The notes: generated by a model not told the origin, from the letters alone. A stretch of DNA of 64,000 nucleotides from Nitrospirota bacterium (GCA_021811105.1 JAJZPM010000007.1:1-64000); one strand, 5' to 3'; counted from the stretch's first letter, positions 27,767 to 38,378 are shown. A program made the numbers and translations.

Positions 27767-28978
27767 TCAAAAACTCTTCACATACGCAAGGTATGAGCGG
27801 TAATTCCTCCTCACTTCCTTTTCGCTGTCGCCGCCGAATTTCTCGAGAAAGGCATCCGCCAGTATCAGCGCGGTCATCGCCTCGCCGACAACGGCTGCGG
27901 CGGGTACCGCACAGACATCCGAGCGTTCATAGGCCGCCTTGAAGGCCTTCTTAGTCTTCATATCGACGGACATAAGGGGCCTTCTTAACGTGGGGATCGG
28001 CTTCATCGCGGCCCTGATGATGACCGGCATGCCGTTCGACATGCCGCCTTCGACTCCCCCTGCATTATTCGTCTTTCTGAAGAACTTTCCCGTGCGCGGA
28101 CCGGACGACTCGTAATAGATCTCGTCCATCACCTGAGACCCCGGACCTTCCGCCATCGCAAAGCCATGCCCTATCTCTACCCCCTTGATCGCCTGTATGC
28201 TCATCATTGCCTGCGCAAGCCTTCCGTCGAGTTTCAGGTCCCACTGCGTGTGGCTCCCGAGTCCGACCGGCACCCCCACCGCAAAGACCTCGAATATGCC
28301 GCCGAGTGAATCGCCGTCTTTTATCGCCTTATCGATCCGCCGCATCATTCTCTTCGACGCTACGGAGTCGGCACATCTCACCGGGGACCCCTCCGCCTGT
28401 GCGAACATCTTCATCAGTTCATCTTCGTCAGCACCGGGAGGGACAGTCCTGACTTTCTGATTGCCGATGCCGAGCACGCGGCTCCCGATGCGTATGCCAA
28501 AGACAGCCAGAAATTTCCTGGCGACCGCGCCGAGCGCCACCCTCATCGCCGTCTCCCTCGCACTCGACCGCTCGAGGATATTGCGGACATCCCTATGGTC
28601 GTATTTCAGCGCACCGGCAAGGTCCGCATGGCCCGGCCTCGGACGGGTAACAGGGGCGCCCCTTGGGTCTTTCACCGTGAAATTCCGGATGTACGGATCC
28701 GGACTCATCACTTCCTTCCAGTTCTCCCAGTCCTTGTTTTCCACCAGAACGCCTATAGGCGATCCGAGCGTCCTGCCCCGGCGAACGCCGGAGAGTATCA
28801 ACGCCCGGTCCGATTCTATCTTCATCCTGCTGCCCCGGCCGTATCCTCCCTGCCGTCTCTTCAGTTCTCTGTCAATGTCTTCGGACGAAAGGGACAGCCC
28901 CGACGGGATGCCTTCGATGATCCCGGCAAGCGCCCTGCCGTGCGACTCGCCTGCGGTCAATACTCTAAGTTTTGTCAT
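27767..28978 (-). CDS. aroC: Chorismate synthase
   Basis: 403 residues with [18 protein letters not shown] at the N-terminus, [26 protein letters not shown] and [14 protein letters not shown]. It is an FMN-dependent lyase making chorismate from EPSP. About 75 nt separate its start from the upstream subtilase gene on the same strand. In related genomes aroC usually follows pilQ directly; here a 7-kb accessory block lies between. Confidence 0.97.
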
Positions 28979-29055: not shown

Positions 29056-30867
29056 CTATTTCCCCCTGCCGTTTAGACGCTTCATGATGTAAACCGCCAG
29101 GAGAGGAATCATAAAGACGAGGGCGTCCGCCTCGGAGCCGGTGCCCCTGGCCGCGACCGAACATCCCCCGCCGCCTCCGGAAGGAGGGGGCTGAGGACTT
29201 CCGGTTGTGGTCGCCGTGGCCTCGTTAGAATATGCCGATGAAGCAGGTATCGTATTGAATGCGCTGACCCGGTAAGCGTACGCGGTGGAAGGCAGAAGCC
29301 CTTTGTTGTCGAGATACGTCGTGACGCCGGGGCCGACCCTGTCGATCTCCGAGAAAGTGCCGCCGGGCGCTTCTCTCTCTATTACATAGCCATCCTCGCC
29401 GGTGGCGTGGTCCGTCCAGCTCAAAGTGATCGCTGAGGAAGACGCTGTAGCCGCAGTAAGTCCGTCGGGCGCCAGCAATGAAGAAAGCGCCTTGTAGGCG
29501 TTCACCCTGCCGCCGCTTGCCGTCCGGCCCTGGAGAGTCGGGAGCAGATCAACGTACCGCATGATCGTGGCGCGGACCTGCTGGTAGCTGAAATTGGGAT
29601 AATAGCTTTCGAGAAGGCCGGCAAGTCCCGCTGCGTGTGGAGTCGACATCGAAGTCCCGTCGCAGTATTCATAGCCCGGAGCAGGCGACGCGCCGCAAAA
29701 CGGTTTTGTCAGTGCCGGTGGGACAGTGCTCACGATGTCCACCCCGGGGGCAGCTACCTGAACGGTATTTTTCCCATAGTTGCTGAAGGAGGCGAGCATG
29801 TCCTGCTCGTCGGTCGCCGCTACGGAAATCATATTGGGGAGGTCATAATTCCCCGGATATACCGGCGTTACATCGTTATCACTGCCGCCTGTGTCGCCGT
29901 TTCCGGCCGCCGTGACGAAAAGGACCCCGGAGGCATTCGCGGCAGCAATCGCGCTCTTTTCGGTGTTCGAAAAAGTATCCCCGGCGAAACTGGCGTTTAT
30001 GATCTGTGCGCCCTTGGCGATCGCGTACTCGATCGCAGCGGCCTCATCCGCCACAGTGCCTTCTCCCGTTGCATCAAGAATTTTCAGCGGCATAAGTTTC
30101 ACATTCCAGATCACCCCCGCAATGCCGATGCCGTTATTGCCGACAGCCCCTATAATGCCGCCTACATGAGTTCCGTGGCCGTCGTCGTCCATAGGGTTAT
30201 TGTTGTTGCCGACAAAATTCCACCCCCTGCAGTCTGCAGCATATCCGTTATGGTCGCTGTCGCTGCCTGATGCACAGTCGGGATCACCCGGGTTGGACCA
30301 TATGTTGCCCGCCAGGTCGGGGTGGGTATAATCGATTCCGGTATCGATCACCGCAATGACAAGACCGCTGTTGCCGCTGACAATGTCCCAGGCCTGAGGC
30401 ATATGCATGTCCGCGCCGGGGACAAGACGGTTGCTGAGCGCCCATTGCGCGCTAAACAGGGGGTCGTTCGGAAAAGTCGAACGGACGGACCTTAAATAAT
30501 TGGGCTCTGCATACTCGACGTCGGGGTCCTGCATGTAAAGGGTGATAGCGTCCCCGACCGAAAGGCCTGCCGGAAGCTTGACCTGCTCCGCATTGAGCAA
30601 AGCCATTCCCCTCATTTTCCTCGTCCCTAAAGTCCCCTGCAGTCGTAACGAGGAGGTCGAGCGAGTTCCCGGCTTATACTTGACTATCAGCTCGCCGTCT
30701 CTATAGCTATTCTTTGCGGCAACCGCCAGGATGGACTGTACGGTAATCTTAGGTGCGGCAGGCTCTCCTGCAACGGCAGTCATCCCGGTCGGCGAAACCA
30801 CCGCGTCCCGGGAATTCCCGCAAGAGACAAGAAGCAGGATAAGCAATAGACCAGATACCTTTTTCAT
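29056..30867 (-). CDS. Subtilisin-like (S8) serine protease lipoprotein with C-terminal sorting tail (copy 1)
   Basis: 603 residues. The lipobox LLVSC is at residues 12-16. An I9-like propeptide (SYRDGELIVKYKPG) is followed by a subtilase domain with catalytic Asp175 (VIDTGID), His231 (GHGTHVGG) and Ser406 (GTSMSTPHAAG), then a fibronectin type III domain (about 465-556). The tail is Gly-rich ending in Cys569 (PSGGGGGCSV), with a TM segment about 582-595 and KRLNGRGK. Such tripartite Gly/Cys tails are known sorting signals cut by CPBP-type proteases (MYXO-, JDVT- or Synergist-CTERM systems). The next gene upstream is such a protease. AGGAG precedes the ATG. Confidence 0.88.
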   Translation of the reverse strand: MKKVSGLLLILLLVSCGNSRDAVVSPTGMTAVAGEPAAPKITVQSILAVAAKNSYRDGELIVKYKPGTRSTSSLRLQGTLGTRKMRGMALLNAEQVKLPAGLSVGDAITLYMQDPDVEYAEPNYLRSVRSTFPNDPLFSAQWALSNRLVPGADMHMPQAWDIVSGNSGLVIAVIDTGIDYTHPDLAGNIWSNPGDPDCASGSDSDHNGYAADCRGWNFVGNNNNPMDDDGHGTHVGGIIGAVGNNGIGIAGVIWNVKLMPLKILDATGEGTVADEAAAIEYAIAKGAQIINASFAGDTFSNTEKSAIAAANASGVLFVTAAGNGDTGGSDNDVTPVYPGNYDLPNMISVAATDEQDMLASFSNYGKNTVQVAAPGVDIVSTVPPALTKPFCGASPAPGYEYCDGTSMSTPHAAGLAGLLESYYPNFSYQQVRATIMRYVDLLPTLQGRTASGGRVNAYKALSSLLAPDGLTAATASSSAITLSWTDHATGEDGYVIEREAPGGTFSEIDRVGPGVTTYLDNKGLLPSTAYAYRVSAFNTIPASSAYSNEATATTTGSPQPPPSGGGGGCSVAARGTGSEADALVFMIPLLAVYIMKRLNGRGK

Positions 30868-31002
30868 GAGTTCTCCTCGATCAGTATTCTACTCCTGCTA
30901 TTGCGAGACAGGGATGATGCATGCTGTCATGCCTCAGGTCCGGTGTTGATGCGGCAGTCAGCCATATGAACCCATAATCAGGAGGCACGTTCATAAAGTA
31001 TA

Positions 31003-31539
31003 TCACAAAGACCCAAGGTACACGACGTTTGCGAGGAAATGAAAGATCGTCGCAGGTATAACATTCGAGGTGCGAAGATAGAGAAATCCCATTACCAGGG
31101 AGGGGAAGAATGTCAGAGGAGCAGAGGAGTCTCCCGAGAAGAAGAACGCAGGAAGATGGGCGGCCGCGAACAAAAGGCTCGTGATGATAACAGCCTTATA
31201 ATTGTTCCCGAGCGTGTCCTGGAGAAATCCCCTGAAAAAAATCTCTTCCGGAAAAGAGACGCCGAAAAGCTGGACCGCCATGGCCCCGGTCTCCAGAGGT
31301 ACGAATTTTCTTGTGACTGAGAAAAAAAACAGAAACGGCAGCAAGATCACCGCCGATACGATGACGGCCAGCGCAATCTGCCTTCCGGAAAAGTTTATAT
31401 TCACCCGTTTCCCGAGCGCCAGGGGCGTAGCGACAAGATAAACCGGCGTGAGATAATCGAGAAAGCGCAGGGAGAATGCATGGGCCGGAATCACAATCAG
31501 GAGGAGTACCGCATATGCGTAAATGGCATTCCTTTTCAC
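31003..31539 (-). CDS. CPBP-family glutamic intramembrane protease (putative sorting protease)
   Basis: A compact 178-residue protein with about five to six TM helices. It carries the full CPBP active-site set: EEIFFR (Glu98, Glu99, Arg103), FAAAH (His128) and HFLAN (His167, Asn171). Related short CPBP proteins (myxosortases, JDVT-CTERM proteases) process C-terminal Gly/Cys tails. It sits exactly between two genes whose products have such tails, 135 nt before one and about 290 nt after the other. The start is GTG with AAGG 6 nt upstream. Assignment to the sorting role is by context; the fold and motifs are direct. Confidence 0.85.
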   Translation of the reverse strand: MKRNAIYAYAVLLLIVIPAHAFSLRFLDYLTPVYLVATPLALGKRVNINFSGRQIALAVIVSAVILLPFLFFFSVTRKFVPLETGAMAVQLFGVSFPEEIFFRGFLQDTLGNNYKAVIITSLLFAAAHLPAFFFSGDSSAPLTFFPSLVMGFLYLRTSNVIPATIFHFLANVVYLGSL

Positions 31540-31777
31540 AGTGAGCCTTAAGTCATCCTTACAGTTCGAACAGTTCCTTATGAAGCCGGACAGGAGCGCT
31601 GAAAAATGGCTTGTAGCGACACCTTACAGACCTATCAAGAGGCCAGCCAGCCTTCTCCTGAAAGCCATCCTGACGTTAAAACCGCGGCAACGTGAAAGAC
31701 AAACAAAATCATGTCGTCATTACAAGACTTTTTCGGCGTTCTTGTCCGGCTTTATGCAACATCAGGTCATAAAAACA

Positions 31778-31799
31778 GAGAGGGGCATAAGCCCCTCTC
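31778..31799 (-). terminator. Intrinsic terminator after subtilase copy 2
   Basis: A 9-bp perfect GC-rich stem with a 4-nt loop, followed on the minus strand by TGTTTTT. It lies 28 nt beyond the stop of the upstream subtilase gene. The rest of 31540-31777 shows no gene; it should hold the promoter for the CPBP gene, but I see no clear one. Confidence 0.8.
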
Positions 31800-31826
31800 G
31801 AAGGTATCCCGCAGAAGAGCAAGAAG

Positions 31827-33731
31827 CTATTTTTTCCTGCGACGCAATCTGCTCATGACAAACACCGCGAATAACGGGGCAAGCATAACCATGGTATCGG
31901 CAAATGCCGAGGTCCTGTTCACTCTTCCCCCGACCGAGCATCCGCCACCGCCGCCACCGCCGTTCGTTCCGCCGGAACCATCGGCTGGGGTCGTCGCAGC
32001 TGCCTCGTTTGAATAAAGGGAGTCGGCCGGAATGGTATTGAAAGCGCGCACCCGGTACGTGTATGAGGTGGATGCGCTCAGGCCGATGTCGGAATATGAC
32101 GCGGTGTTCGCTGCGACTTCGGCGATCTGGGCAAATTCACCCGACCCGGTCTTTCTTTCTATTTTATATCCGTCCTCTCCGGTCGCCATGTCGGTCCAGG
32201 AGAGCGTGATCGCGCCCGACGATTGCGCTGACGCCGAAAGCCCGGACGGCGGCAGAAGCGAAGTCACCGCCCTGTAGGCGTTGATACGTCCGCCGGTCTG
32301 TATCCATCCCTGAAGGGTCGGCAGTACGTCCACATACCTGAGGACCGTTGCGCGGACCTGGGCCGGAGTGAACTGGCCGTAGTAGCTCTCCAGCAGGGCG
32401 GCTAGACCCGCCACGTGCGGCGCTGCCATCGAAGTCCCCGCGCAGAAGTCATAGCCGGCATTAAAGGAGTTCGTGCAAAATGAGCTGAATGACATGCTGA
32501 CGCCAGTGGATGGAATAGTACTCAGGATATAGACCCCCGGTGCAGCAACATGCACTGTGTTCGGACCAAAATTGCTGAACGTTGCCCTTCTGTCGTTCTG
32601 GTCAGTGGCGGCCACCGAGATGATATTCGGCAAGTTGTAGTTGGCGGGATAAGAAGGCGTCAGGTCGTTGTTGTCTCCCAGGGAGTCGAGAGTCCCGTTC
32701 CCTGCCGCAGCGATAAAGAGGACCCCCGCGCTGTTCGCCGCATTGATCGCGTCGAATTCGGTTTGAGAGAAGCCGTTCGCTCCGAAACTGGCGTTTATTA
32801 CCTTTGCCCCGTTATTCACCGCGTACTGGATTGCGGCAACCTCATCGGCCACCGAGCCGCAGAAATCAGCGCCCGTGCCGCATACGTCGGGGCCGAAGTC
32901 GGTGATAAATTTCAGCGGCATGATACTGGTATTCCACATCACCCCGGAGATACCTATGCCGTTATTGCCCATGGCGCCTATGATACCTGCCACATGCGTG
33001 CCGTGGCCGAGATTGTCCATGGGGTCATTGTTGCCGTCGGCGAAGTTCCAGCCGACGCAGTCGTCGACAAAGCCGTTTTGGTCATTGTCGATACCGTCCG
33101 CACAATTTGCCTCTCCGGTGTTCCTCCAGATATTATTCACGAGGTCGGGATGGTTCAGGTCGACTCCGCTGTCGATGACCGCTACGATGATGTCTCTGCT
33201 GCCGCGGGCAAAGTCCCATGCCTGCGGCATCTTGATGTCCGCGCCGGCAGTGCCGCCGGCAAACGTGCCGGTATTACTGAGCGCCCACTGCTGGGGATTA
33301 AAATAAAGATCGTTCGGGACCGTATTCTTCGGATATCTGAGATAGTTCGGCTCTGCGTATTCGACGCTGGGGTCCTGCATGTACCGTACGATCGCGTCCT
33401 TCACAGGCATCCCTGCCGCGAGTTTCACGCGCTCGAGGTTGGGGATGGCCGCGAACCTTCTTTCGACCGCCGCACCCATCGTCTGGTGCAGACTCGCAGC
33501 GGCCTTCCCGGCAACGCCTGACTTGAACTTTACAAGAAGTTCTCCCTTCCTGTATCTTCCCTTCTCCGCTGCCGCGAGAACGGCCTGGACAGTGACCTTC
33601 GGCGCAACGACCTGGCTTACGGTGACCTTCGCATTCGGCGAGGAGAAGCTCCCGGTCGTCGAATTGCTCCCGCAGGAGACGAGCGCGAGCGGGGCAATAA
33701 TTGCAAAGATAATATAAATGAATTTTTTCAT
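31827..33731 (-). CDS. Subtilisin-like (S8) serine protease lipoprotein with C-terminal sorting tail (copy 2)
   Basis: 634 residues from the ATG at 33731 (GGAGAGGG upstream; a longer frame to 33773 runs into a terminator). Architecture equals copy 1: lipobox LALVSC, I9-like propeptide (KGRYRKGELLVKFK), catalytic Asp187 (VIDSGVD), His243 (GHGTHVAG) and Ser434 (GTSMAAPHVAG), then an Fn3 domain. The tail is GGGGGG-Cys598 followed by a TM segment and SRLRRRKK. The two proteins are tandem paralogues flanking the CPBP protease. They may cut extracellular polymers or mature pilus or surface proteins; that is inference from location next to pilQ. Confidence 0.88.
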   Translation of the reverse strand: MKKFIYIIFAIIAPLALVSCGSNSTTGSFSSPNAKVTVSQVVAPKVTVQAVLAAAEKGRYRKGELLVKFKSGVAGKAAASLHQTMGAAVERRFAAIPNLERVKLAAGMPVKDAIVRYMQDPSVEYAEPNYLRYPKNTVPNDLYFNPQQWALSNTGTFAGGTAGADIKMPQAWDFARGSRDIIVAVIDSGVDLNHPDLVNNIWRNTGEANCADGIDNDQNGFVDDCVGWNFADGNNDPMDNLGHGTHVAGIIGAMGNNGIGISGVMWNTSIMPLKFITDFGPDVCGTGADFCGSVADEVAAIQYAVNNGAKVINASFGANGFSQTEFDAINAANSAGVLFIAAAGNGTLDSLGDNNDLTPSYPANYNLPNIISVAATDQNDRRATFSNFGPNTVHVAAPGVYILSTIPSTGVSMSFSSFCTNSFNAGYDFCAGTSMAAPHVAGLAALLESYYGQFTPAQVRATVLRYVDVLPTLQGWIQTGGRINAYRAVTSLLPPSGLSASAQSSGAITLSWTDMATGEDGYKIERKTGSGEFAQIAEVAANTASYSDIGLSASTSYTYRVRAFNTIPADSLYSNEAAATTPADGSGGTNGGGGGGGCSVGGRVNRTSAFADTMVMLAPLFAVFVMSRLRRRKK

Positions 33732-33820: not shown

Positions 33821-35485
33821 CTATGGGCCTATATTCAGAGTCGCTGTAGTTGTATTGCTGGCGGCATCCGTCACATTGAGTGTGCACACTCCCGCTCCAC
33901 TTGTCTGGGTCCCTTCGCTGCCGACAGTCACTACGAATGTAGAGGCTACGTTACTCCAGATAAGCGGATCGCTGGCGCCGCACCCCGCCGGCACAGTTGT
34001 ATCGTGGCACGCAAAAACCCCTGCAGCACAAGTCATTGCAACCGCATAGGGCGTCGAGCCGCCTGATACTGTATATGTAACAGGATCAAGAGGAGCAGCT
34101 CCCGAAACTGTTGCCGTAGGCGGAGTTACAGCCAGCGGCGCTGAAGCCACAATAGCGACTGTTGCGGTCTTCGTGGCGCCGGCACTATCGCTAACCGTAA
34201 GGGTCACACTGCCTGGCGCGGCATTTGCGGCAATAGTCGCGGTGACCGTCGAGCCGGTCCACGATCCGTTGTTCACCGTACCGTTGTATACCCTGGTCGG
34301 ATCGGAGGATATGGTGGTATAGGGCGCGGTGCCGCCGGTAATAGTGAATGACGCGGTCTGCGTCGTGGGCTGACTGACCACAGTCCGCGAAGGGGGTAAT
34401 ATGGTCAGGGCCTGAGCCGGAGCAGTGACCGTAACCGACGTCGACGCCGACTTGCCGCCAGACGATGCATTGATTGAAACGGACAGATTTGACGAACCCG
34501 CAGTCAGTGTCGGGGCGGTATATTTGGCAGTAGCCACACCCTTTGTCGTCTGGGCAAATGGGGCGATGGCGCCGCTAGAGGCCGTAAAATTCACGGCCGT
34601 TCCGTCCGGGACAAAGGTCCCGATCGCCGTCATCACCGTTGCGGAGATCGTCGAGGTGCCGCCGGAGGCGACGGTCGCGGGATCCGCAGCCAACGAAATC
34701 TGGCCCACCTCGATCGGAGTAACGAATAACGTGATGACATTGAATGCGCCGGTGTTTGTCGAAACAGCGTTCACATTCACAGGGGTATCAGTATTTCTGG
34801 TTTCAGAGGGCACGACTTTAATACGGGCAAATGCCTCACCCGCAGAGTTGGTCGTTTTTGCCTGCCCGTCAGGGAAGGTAACCTCGGTGCTGTCGGCGCC
34901 GAAGGTGACCGTATCGTTCAGTGAAGGACTGCCTGTGTCATCCAGAACAGTTGCCCTGACGATCGCTTCTCCGGACGTCAGGAAAAAATCGCTCGGGTCG
35001 TTGTAGGTCCCGTCGTTATTGCTGTCGACCGCAAGGGTAAGTGTGGGCGTAACGCTCACGGTAGGCAGGAACAGATCGAAGATGGAAAAGAAGACCATCT
35101 TTTTATCCCGCACCTTGCCCGAACCGGTATTGACTTCCGCCTGGACTGTTGCAAATCCCGAATCCGTAGAAAAGAGCGAAACCGTCGCATAACCCATGGA
35201 ATCCGTCGTGGCGGTGGTCGAACTGAGAACACCGAGAAGGGAGAGGTTGGTAAACACCACAGGTACGCCGGCCATTGTCGCGCCGTTGCCGTCAAGCACC
35301 TTTGCCTTAAGCGTTATAGAGGAATTGGTCTGGACGATCTGCTGCACCGGCAGCAACTGGACGATGGACGGGACTGACGGGTTCACTCCCGCCGGTGTGC
35401 TCGAACTGCCGGCCCCCCCGCCGCAGCCGGCAAGCAGAGACATCATTAAAATTAGTGCTATCGGTAACAGAGATTTTTTTATCAT
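33821..35485 (-). CDS. Large Ig-like-domain lipoprotein
   Basis: 554 residues from the ATG at 35485, which has AGGAGG upstream. The lipobox LLAGC is followed by a Gly/Ser linker. An array of beta-sandwich repeats comes next: invasin/Big_1-like segments (LKAKVLDGNGATMAGVPVVF, repeated as ATVLDDTGSPSLNDTVTF) and later putative cadherin-like or bacterial Ig repeats (ITGGTAPYTT, VSGGSTPYAV). The composition is Thr/Ala/Val-rich with several cysteines near the C-terminus. Probably surface-exposed and adhesive or structural. It lacks the Gly/Cys tail of the neighbouring proteases. It lies 11 nt after another lipoprotein gene, so the two are one unit. Confidence 0.75.
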   Translation of the reverse strand: MIKKSLLPIALILMMSLLAGCGGGAGSSSTPAGVNPSVPSIVQLLPVQQIVQTNSSITLKAKVLDGNGATMAGVPVVFTNLSLLGVLSSTTATTDSMGYATVSLFSTDSGFATVQAEVNTGSGKVRDKKMVFFSIFDLFLPTVSVTPTLTLAVDSNNDGTYNDPSDFFLTSGEAIVRATVLDDTGSPSLNDTVTFGADSTEVTFPDGQAKTTNSAGEAFARIKVVPSETRNTDTPVNVNAVSTNTGAFNVITLFVTPIEVGQISLAADPATVASGGTSTISATVMTAIGTFVPDGTAVNFTASSGAIAPFAQTTKGVATAKYTAPTLTAGSSNLSVSINASSGGKSASTSVTVTAPAQALTILPPSRTVVSQPTTQTASFTITGGTAPYTTISSDPTRVYNGTVNNGSWTGSTVTATIAANAAPGSVTLTVSDSAGATKTATVAIVASAPLAVTPPTATVSGAAPLDPVTYTVSGGSTPYAVAMTCAAGVFACHDTTVPAGCGASDPLIWSNVASTFVVTVGSEGTQTSGAGVCTLNVTDAASNTTTATLNIGP

Positions 35486-35496
35486 TTCGCCTCCTG

Positions 35497-36084
35497 CTAA
35501 CACAAGTTCCAATCCGCCAGCCAAACATCCACTTCCACCTGGAAAAATCCCGACTTTCCAAAAACATTTACGTACTTGCAGTTATACGATGCTACGTAAT
35601 GGGTGGGATATTCAGCGGGAGCAAAGGTGCTCTGGGTATAATCATTCCACCACTTGATCTTTCTCTGCACGTCCAATAAAGGCATCGTACAAGAATTTGT
35701 TCCATCGATAAGGGTGCAGTTGGGATAGACCGTCATGGTCTCGATTATCGGCGATGCCGGGTCCTCATTGGCCTTTCTATAGGTGATTGTGCATTCTTCG
35801 ACGCTGGCGGAAAAGGGATCGTCCGTAATGTTGGGAATGAGCTTTGTCGCGTCTATCGTCAACGTGGCATCCTCTCTGAAGAGTCCCTTTTCGGGCTGCC
35901 CACTGGGACAGATATGCACATTGGTATCGATGTCTATATTCGTAGGCGCAATAGACACGGACTTGATCACGATGCCTGTCCCGTCACTGCCGGACGAGCC
36001 GGGAGCGCCTTGCCCTCCACCGCAGCCGGCAAGCGCAATGAGCGATACAAGACCAATAATGAAACCATAGTATTTATTCTTCAT
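35497..36084 (-). CDS. Small Cys-containing lipoprotein of unknown function
   Basis: 195 residues from the second of two adjacent ATG codons; AAGGAGG suits the second better. The lipobox is LIALAGC, followed by a Gly/Ser/Asp-rich linker (GGGQGAPGSSGSDG). A globular beta-rich domain with six further cysteines follows, including ones at the extreme C-terminus (ADWNLC), which may form disulfides. No family recognised. Located between pilQ and the Ig-like lipoprotein. Confidence 0.65.
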   Translation of the reverse strand: MKNKYYGFIIGLVSLIALAGCGGGQGAPGSSGSDGTGIVIKSVSIAPTNIDIDTNVHICPSGQPEKGLFREDATLTIDATKLIPNITDDPFSASVEECTITYRKANEDPASPIIETMTVYPNCTLIDGTNSCTMPLLDVQRKIKWWNDYTQSTFAPAEYPTHYVASYNCKYVNVFGKSGFFQVEVDVWLADWNLC

Positions 36085-36143
36085 CATGCCTCCTTAACTT
36101 TCATCTATATTACTTACTCTTTTTCAGCAGTTCGGCAACATTG

Positions 36144-38378
36144 CTACATAGGCTCTACTGGTCGACTCACAATCGTCGGTGTTATGAAAATGAGAAGCTC
36201 CTTGATTGTCGGTCCTATCTGCTGCTTCGTTTTAAACAGCCAACCGAGGCCGGGGATCTTGCTCAGAAGGGGTACGCCGGTGCTTGTCTCGGATTCGTCG
36301 AGCCTGTAGATGCCGCCGAGCACCAGAGTCTCTCCGGCTTTTACGAGCGCCTGGGTGGTAAGACTTTTTGTATTGACCACAGCGTTGGCCCCTGCTGTGC
36401 CGGGCTGGAGACTGTTGTCAGTCGCGTTGACCTTCAACTGAACATAGCCGTCGGGCGTGATCTTCGGGGTCACCTGAAGGCTCAAGGTGGCGGTCTGGGA
36501 CTGGGTCTGGGTGCCGGCCTGACTCACCGTCGGTATGAAAAAAGTAGTACCCTGCTGTATTGTGGCCGCCTCGTTGTCCATGGTCAGGATCTTGGGATTC
36601 GAGAGAGTCTTTGATTTGTTGATAGACTCGAGGGCAGACAGGGAGACGCTCACGTTAAACGAGTTGGCGTGCCCCAGATTTAAGTTCACCGCGCCGCCAC
36701 CGTTGCCGGGGAGAGTCGCGGAAGGCCCTGCCGCTATCGTAGGAGTATTGACGGAAAATGCTCCGCCAACGTTATTAGGGAAAGTTTGCGAGGTAAACGA
36801 ACCACCCCAATTAATTCCAAGCTGTGAACTGTAATCACTGTCTACCTCGACAAGCTTTGCCTCTATCATAACCTGGGGTTTCGCAACATCCATAATCCTC
36901 ACTAGGTCCTTAACTTTGTCGATGCTTTGCTGTGTGTCCTTAACGATCAGGGTATTCATTCTGTTGTCGATTGTAATGCTGCCCCTAGGGCTGAGCAGTT
37001 TCCCGCTGCTGATAGCGGTCTGGATTTCCCCTGCGGTCGCGTAATTCACCCTCACTACCTCCTGCATCAGGGGCTCGGCCGCCTCTTCAGTCTCCTTCAG
37101 TTTCGCCCGTTCCTTTACGATCTCGTCAAATACCTTCACCGGGGCGATCCACAGAATATTGCCTTCGATCCGATGACTCAGGTGCGTCTGATTAAGGATA
37201 ATGTCAAGCGCCTGGTCCCAGGGTACGTTCATCAGCTTGATCGTAATTTTCCCTTTGACTCCGGGATCGAGCACCAGGTTGTAATTATTGACATCGGCAA
37301 GGAGCCTGAATATCGGCCCGACATCTGCATCCTGAAAATCAAGGGAGATCCTCTTCCCCTTGTAGCTGCCGTCGGTCTGATTTTCCTGCTCCGATGAGAT
37401 AGCGGCCTCCTTCCGCGGCTCCGCCGCCCCGGCTATCGCCTCGTGCGGGGCAGTCTCCTTTGGCGGAGCCTCCATCTGCGGCTGGGAAGCGGCGATTTCC
37501 TTGTTCTTCAGTGATATCTCGATCGTATTTCCGACAGCAGCAACGTCGAACGCGGTCTTCGCCCTAAGGTCGAGTACGAGTCTTACTTTGTCCTTGTGCC
37601 GTCCTGCCCTTATACTCGCAAGAGGCGACACCGCCTTCGACGGGAGCGAAGCCTGCAGAGAGACATTCGGCACGTCAATGACGATTTTCCGGTCCAGGGG
37701 AAAGACATTCGGCATCATCGTTCCGTTGCCGATGATGACCACCTTCAGTCCTGCCGGAGATTTCTCCAGCTCAATGCGGTCGATCGTGGTCGCCCTGGCA
37801 AGGACCTCCTTATGGCCTTCTGCAGGCTGGACGCCCCCTTCCGCGCCGGAAGATTTTGTTTCCTCAACCGTCCCTGCCGAATCTGAAGGAGCCGTAGTAT
37901 CAGGCACGTCCTTCTCCTCCACTTTCTCTTCGGTCTCCTTGCCCTGGGTCAGCGTGACCGGTTCTTCAGGCTTGACCAGGAGCGTAAGCGTATTATCCTT
38001 ATACATAGGAACGACCGATGAAGGGGCTTGAAGGGTTATGTCCAGTTTGACCGACGGGTTCGGCGAGTCTGTCTGCTGCGGCACAATCTCGCTAATTCCC
38101 GCTTTGGAAGACACTATCTTGCCGGTAAAACCGCCGATCCGCATATCGGGGATATCAACAGTCACCTTGTACGGGTCGTTACCCGTATATATAGTATAAA
38201 CAAAACTCTTGTTGCTGGTTATAGCGAGGCTGTTGTCTTCCGGCTTTATGTCTGTAATGACAGGCAGGTCGTCGATTACAGGGGTGCTCTTGACCGTCGC
38301 CCTTGATGCGCAGCCGAGGATCAGCGTTAATATCATAACCGGCAGAAGAATTTTTAATATCATATATTTTTTCATCAT
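36144..38378 (-). CDS. pilQ: Type IV pilus secretin PilQ
   Basis: 744 residues. It has a lipoprotein-type signal (LILGC), two AMIN-like domains in the first 300 residues, the STN/secretin N0 segment (RISLDFQDADVGPIFRLLADV), an N1-type domain (RVNYATAGEIQTAI), and the secretin barrel with VMIEAKLVEVDSDYSSQLGI and VPLLSKIPGLGWLF near the end. It forms the outer-membrane pore through which the pilus passes. It overlaps pilP by 4 nt and ends the pilMNOPQ operon. Confidence 0.96.
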   Translation of the reverse strand: MMKKYMILKILLPVMILTLILGCASRATVKSTPVIDDLPVITDIKPEDNSLAITSNKSFVYTIYTGNDPYKVTVDIPDMRIGGFTGKIVSSKAGISEIVPQQTDSPNPSVKLDITLQAPSSVVPMYKDNTLTLLVKPEEPVTLTQGKETEEKVEEKDVPDTTAPSDSAGTVEETKSSGAEGGVQPAEGHKEVLARATTIDRIELEKSPAGLKVVIIGNGTMMPNVFPLDRKIVIDVPNVSLQASLPSKAVSPLASIRAGRHKDKVRLVLDLRAKTAFDVAAVGNTIEISLKNKEIAASQPQMEAPPKETAPHEAIAGAAEPRKEAAISSEQENQTDGSYKGKRISLDFQDADVGPIFRLLADVNNYNLVLDPGVKGKITIKLMNVPWDQALDIILNQTHLSHRIEGNILWIAPVKVFDEIVKERAKLKETEEAAEPLMQEVVRVNYATAGEIQTAISSGKLLSPRGSITIDNRMNTLIVKDTQQSIDKVKDLVRIMDVAKPQVMIEAKLVEVDSDYSSQLGINWGGSFTSQTFPNNVGGAFSVNTPTIAAGPSATLPGNGGGAVNLNLGHANSFNVSVSLSALESINKSKTLSNPKILTMDNEAATIQQGTTFFIPTVSQAGTQTQSQTATLSLQVTPKITPDGYVQLKVNATDNSLQPGTAGANAVVNTKSLTTQALVKAGETLVLGGIYRLDESETSTGVPLLSKIPGLGWLFKTKQQIGPTIKELLIFITPTIVSRPVEPM

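Follow-up and report, generated by a model that had tools for sequence, protein, structure and literature searches.

CPBP enzymes were shown experimentally to sort bacterial proteins only recently, with the 2025 study of MrtX from Myxococcus xanthus (PMC11980579). Cleavage of MYXO-CTERM by MrtX depends on Cys, and the authors proposed that lipidation comes first and is followed by export through the type II secretion system (T2SS), which MYXO-CTERM proteins use; a two-gene MrtJ/JDVT-CTERM neighbourhood was also described (PMC11980579). Here, we analysed a stretch of 64,000 nucleotides from a Nitrospirota bacterium (order Thermodesulfovibrionales; GCA_021811105.1, JAJZPM010000007.1:1-64000; hereafter the window), in which a gene coding for a 178-amino acid CPBP protein lies between two genes coding for subtilases, A and B, both ending in a Gly-Cys tail. 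It is quite probable that the CPBP gene codes for the sorting enzyme of these two adjoining subtilases and that this enzyme is a lineage-specific relative of the myxosortases. As MrtJ/JDVT-CTERM pairs were already known, the layout of an enzyme beside its substrate is not itself new.

The CPBP protein matches PF02517 with 71 bits against a cut-off of 22.4 (E 1e-19). Its position between two subtilases and its complete EExxxR, FxxxH and HxxxN motifs (EEIFFR, FAAAH and HFLAN), previously noticed in a sequence-only reading of this DNA, were borne out, the key residues being invariant across 28 homologues. The AlphaFold model of the protein (mean predicted local distance difference test, pLDDT, 96.6) aligns with archaeal Rce1 (4cad; Z 14.2, root mean square deviation 3.0, 177 residues aligned with VIA-align) and with SpdC (6u0o; Z 14.8), the next row reaching only Z 5.2. 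Foldseek alone gave no significant match for this model in the Protein Data Bank (PDB), the Rce1 and SpdC matches being obtained by realignment of its candidates, and a search of PDB chains by sequence with the enzyme profile gave no match. In the 3.94-Mb genome, which was covered by profile and pattern searches, the CPBP gene of the window is the single match to the PF02517 profile. A general CPBP housekeeping gene was considered and rejected.

The two subtilases are paralogues with a Fervidolysin-type prodomain, a Peptidase_S8 domain and an fn3 domain recognised by domain profiles, and the D/H/S catalytic motifs of both are intact. Their tails (GGGGGCSVAARGTGSEADALVFMIPLLAVYIMKRLNGRGK and GGGGGGGCSVGGRVNRTSAFADTMVMLAPLFAVFVMSRLRRRKK) have the reported layout of GGGGGC, transmembrane (TM) helix and Arg/Lys residues; across genomes the tail consists of a Cys motif, a TM helix and a basic cluster at the C-terminus, with an invariant Gly-Cys and a conserved GGGGCSIG-N-TA-AD motif (alignment A1). 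A profile built from 27 tails and run over the whole genome matches exactly these two proteins (Table 1), the next match having an E-value of 4.5, which gives one enzyme and two tailed proteins in the genome. A chance pair of motifs was ruled out, the tail profile and PF02517 matching only this locus. Searching the DNA directly for a GGGC pattern was not informative (95 matches versus 70 in the reversed control). The tripartite tail resembles that of sortase substrates, as would be expected if the CPBP protein were a one-step transpeptidase joining the tail to a lipid or to another envelope component. CPBP enzymes are, however, hydrolases with an EExxxR/H/HxxxN site, as established for Rce1. 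The authors of the MrtX study also prefer lipidation as the first step (PMC11980579), and we regard direct, sortase-like joining as highly improbable.

Since subtilases A and B are paralogous, their tails do not count as two independent pieces of evidence for a sorting system, and independent evidence comes from comparison across genomes. The sample comprised 176 genomes of Thermodesulfovibrionales (Nitrospirota), mostly drafts; a homologue at E <= 1e-15 was taken as presence of the enzyme, and weak tail matches at E near 0.005 (G020 and G084) were left out of the counts. An enzyme homologue is present in 48 of the 176 genomes. Tails were detected in 41 of these 48, and in 43 once two seemingly tail-free genomes (G007 and G051) had been inspected and found to carry them, versus 4 of the 128 others. 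Counted by genus, a tail occurs in 30 of the 33 genera with the enzyme and in none of the 52 without it (Fisher p 7e-20, kinship ignored), and three genera (g6, g10 and g12) include some members with both enzyme and tail and some with neither. Five enzyme-only genomes remain: G052, in which the tail is cut by a contig end, and the tail-less G103, in which the locus stops at a contig end, G076, which is 56% complete, G008 and G037. This tight co-occurrence, together with the single enzyme and two tailed proteins of the window genome, supports the earlier proposal of a dedicated CPBP/Cys-tail sorting system.

Several points weigh against this proposal. No tail was found in G037 (96% complete) and G008 (88%), which carry the enzyme. 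Conversely, four drafts that are 66-92% complete (G006, G010, G152 and G159) have tails and no enzyme that could be found, even by profile. The association tests ignore phylogeny. Finally, in genus g9 the enzyme gene and the tailed substrates are unlinked.

Some proteins with no relation to subtilases have the tail at their C-terminus as well, so that it is a portable signal. In genus g9 it is found on proteins of 400-489 amino acids that begin with an ordinary signal peptide and contain a CxxCH motif as well as Temptin_C-like matches, one of these proteins having a choice-of-anchor-U domain over the cut-off (95 bits), and in G004 (L140) it is borne by a HYDIN-like Ig protein. The description of the system as one for surface proteases thus holds for the window, where both substrates are subtilases, but is too narrow for the relatives, where non-proteases also bear the tail. 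In the related group of Dadabacteria and former Deltaproteobacteria, 15 of 16 genomes have matches to the tail profile, several of them typical GGGCSIG or GGCAIAG tails; with up to 15 matches per genome (L235-L257), the enzyme of this group looks like a general sorter.

The tail could instead be a permanent inner-membrane anchor, the CPBP protein doing other work, such as leader-peptide clearance, and being placed there by chance or for reasons of regulation. The CPBP gene is set apart from subtilase B by a terminator-like hairpin, which would suit such an arrangement. However, tail and enzyme agree in being present or absent across 85 genera, the conserved motif of the tail exceeds the needs of a plain anchor, the genome has only one CPBP gene, and the homologous subtilases of enzyme-free genomes lack the tail and have different C-termini. 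On this evidence a permanent anchor is quite unlikely. Three of five tested subtilase homologues from enzyme-free genomes (L263, L266 and L267) instead carry a CFI-box-CTERM (98-109 bits versus a cut-off of 40), which looks like an exchange of one anchor for another.

The sorting enzyme proposed here reaches no curated cut-off of the named myxosortases in NCBIfam (Mrt_core, MrtX, MrtC, MrtP, MrtJ and MrtS), its scores being 68.8 bits for MrtS (cut-off 130), 53 for Mrt_core (100) and 47.7 for MrtJ (75). The window tails, tested against JDVT-CTERM and MYXO-CTERM, also stay under the curated cut-off (12.2 and 13.7 bits versus 27). Below their cut-offs, the MrtS, Mrt_core and MrtJ models match all 28 homologous enzymes and the JDVT-CTERM model matches 19 of the 27 tails (best E 3e-5), as they would if the system were an ordinary MrtJ/JDVT-CTERM or MrtS/Synerg-CTERM member overlooked by the curated models. 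We find this rather unlikely, as the enzyme and tails of the window lie far under every cut-off and as, in a tree of 55 enzymes that took in no MrtJ or MrtS sequences, the Thermodesulfovibrionales and Dadabacteria groups split from Myxococcota-type enzymes at 98/98. The Dadabacteria group forms one clade at 100/100 in this tree. Named relatives are metagenome-assembled genomes of Nitrospirota, several labelled Thermodesulfovibrionales, and the enzyme clade extends to Candidatus Dadabacteria and other former Deltaproteobacteria.

Comparison with the described systems reveals a mixture of shared and distinct features. As in MrtX/MYXO-CTERM, the enzyme is a CPBP protease, the tail combines a Cys motif, a TM helix and an Arg cluster, a T2SS is present in the genome and proteases are among the substrates; in contrast, MrtX, a 7-TM protein extended at its N-terminus, serves dozens of tails, whereas the 178-amino acid enzyme of the window would serve two, with a different tail motif and with an N-terminal lipobox on the substrates. 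MrtJ/JDVT-CTERM of beta- and gammaproteobacteria shares the adjacency of enzyme and target gene and provides the nearest tail model, but both of its curated cut-offs are missed, the phylum is another, there are two or three substrates here, some of them unlinked, and the downstream N-x-x-TA-x-AD is strongly conserved. MrtS/Synerg-CTERM (NF040589) provides the closest enzyme model, although the Synerg-CTERM model matches only 1 of the 27 tails, at E 7. Rhombosortase/GlyGly-CTERM, as with VesB of Vibrio cholerae, likewise combines a surface serine protease exported by the T2SS (known there, predicted here), a Gly-rich C-terminal tag and an intramembrane protease as the cutter (cutting being predicted here); its enzyme is a rhomboid serine protease and its tag has no invariant Cys, whereas the candidate here is a CPBP glutamic protease and not a rhomboid, no genome search having been aimed at rhomboids. 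The system thus appears to work like a myxosortase, yet its enzymes and the window tails miss all NCBIfam cut-offs and fit no named family. Its best reading from sequence is as an undescribed branch of the myxosortase, or Cys-CTERM, kind of sorting, in agreement with the distinct subtype suggested earlier. It would extend the Cys-tail systems to one order of Nitrospirota and to a related clade of Dadabacteria and former Deltaproteobacteria that current NCBIfam models miss.

Among the tailed proteins of alignment A3 whose N-terminus is complete, 37 of 41 start with a lipobox; the four exceptions all belong to family f6, two coming from G050 and two from G053. Removal of the prodomain on maturation is established for the subtilase family. 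As the lipobox precedes this removable prodomain, the N-terminal lipid would go when the prodomain does, leaving a C-terminal anchor as the sole means of holding the active enzyme, which would explain the need for a second anchor. Judging from the order of domains, the durable anchor is probably the C-terminal tag. The sequence suggests that the subtilase is a lipobox preprotein when it crosses the inner membrane, its N-terminal lipid lying on the side of the prodomain, and that it is then held by its C-terminal helix with the basic end in the cytoplasm. Lipidation of the Cys and cleavage of the tail by the CPBP enzyme are the most likely next steps: following the MrtX model, a lipid would be added, possibly by Lgt, to the invariant Cys that precedes the helix, and the CPBP protease would cut just after this residue and remove the helix. 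The folded protease would then leave through the outer membrane by the T2SS, as co-occurrence and gene clustering suggest, and autoprocessing would shed the prodomain and the N-terminal lipid while the C-terminal tag would retain the mature protease at the cell surface. With one enzyme and two substrates, the local set is a minimal pair for reconstitution, which could also help to identify the enzyme that lipidates the Cys.

The window genome has a T2SS, with a GspD of 537 bits and GspC, E, F and G at locus L289. A strong GspD match (E <= 1e-105) was obtained in 47 of the 48 enzyme genomes versus 56 of the 128 others. Additionally, the gene order of family f10 runs from aroC through the divergent enzyme gene, a tailed subtilase and gsp genes up to gspE, gspD and gspC to a second tailed subtilase; this arrangement is complete in L290 and L293, its first part is found in L292, and L291 has only the enzyme and gsp genes. 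The link to the T2SS is therefore genomic and not only drawn from analogy with MYXO-CTERM.

At its C-terminus, the GspD of the window genome carries a domain that shares homology with the prodomain found in the tailed subtilases. Residues 654-733, preceded by the Secretin domain (473-642), match Fervidolysin_NPro-like at E 1.2e-18. The modelled C-terminal part (pLDDT about 85) has a beta-alpha-beta fold nearest to the prodomains of subtilisin and PC1/3 (Z 8.7-9.1, 68-74 residues, about 25% identity), and the top Foldseek rows are pro-subtilisin E, the BPN' prosegment and fervidolysin. The fusion occurs in about 85 of the 176 genomes; with 41 of the 128 enzyme-free genomes among them it is wider than the sorting system, yet nearly every sorting system has it (44 of the 48 enzyme genomes). 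A limited literature search, which proves little, found no report of a fusion between GspD and a subtilase prodomain. We put forward, as a hypothesis, that this domain docks or inhibits the subtilase cargo in trans during passage, the export pore itself acting as chaperone; this role is possible rather than likely. If true, a substrate-recognition element would be built into the secretin, which would be relevant to cargo recognition by the T2SS, a problem still unsolved.

Table 1. Features of the sorting locus in the window and related features in other loci (coordinates with an L prefix refer to those loci)
Feature	Coordinates	Strand	Remarks
aroC	27767-28978	minus	neighbour
Subtilase A	29056..30867	minus	603 aa; lipobox LVSC|G, prodomain, S8 domain, fn3, Cys tail
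C-terminal sorting tail (predicted), subtilase A	29059..29178	minus	tail profile E 1.7e-15; alignment A1
Cys569 codon, subtilase A tail	29161-29163	minus	
CPBP (Rce1-like) glutamic intramembrane protease	31003..31539	minus	178 aa, GTG start; predicted sorting enzyme
HFLAN motif (H167, N171)	31027..31041	minus	H and N invariant, 28 homologues
FAAAH motif (F124, H128)	31156..31170	minus	F and H invariant, 28 homologues
EEIFFR motif (E98, E99, R103)	31231..31248	minus	E/E/R invariant, 28 homologues
Terminator-like hairpin, between subtilase B and CPBP gene	31778..31799	minus	9 bp, 7 G-C, then T-run; consensus match only
Subtilase B	31827..33731	minus	634 aa from ATG; lipobox LVSC|G, prodomain, S8 domain, fn3, Cys tail
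C-terminal sorting tail (predicted), subtilase B	31830..31961	minus	tail profile E 1.2e-20
Cys598 codon, subtilase B tail	31938-31940	minus	
Big_1 lipoprotein, upstream of subtilase B	33821..35485	minus	PF02369; homologues adjoin tailed subtilases in many relatives
Small lipoprotein	35497..36087	minus	recurrent first gene of lipoprotein/Big/subtilase module
pilQ	36144-38378	minus	neighbour
GspD with C-terminal subtilase-prodomain-like domain	L289:9084-11303 (G000:C26)		PF22148
Cys-tailed CxxCH Temptin_C-like proteins, genus g9	L195:4315-5517, L197:3893-5206, L198:4384-5853, L200:4984-6186		

Enzyme and substrates had been described as one gene cluster inserted between pilQ and aroC. They are adjacent here and have these neighbours, but two lipoprotein genes separate subtilase B from pilQ, some tail loci of relatives are unlinked to the enzyme, and the terminator-like hairpin after subtilase B means that co-transcription as a single operon is not established. 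The idea of a recently inserted cassette was rejected, because related subtilase and lipoprotein modules recur throughout the order. The module of a small lipoprotein, a Big_1 lipoprotein and a tailed subtilase was found again at L062, L074, L076, L194, L199, L121 and L293; in the window its lipoprotein genes (33821-36087) adjoin pilQ, and in family f10 the module adjoins gspC.

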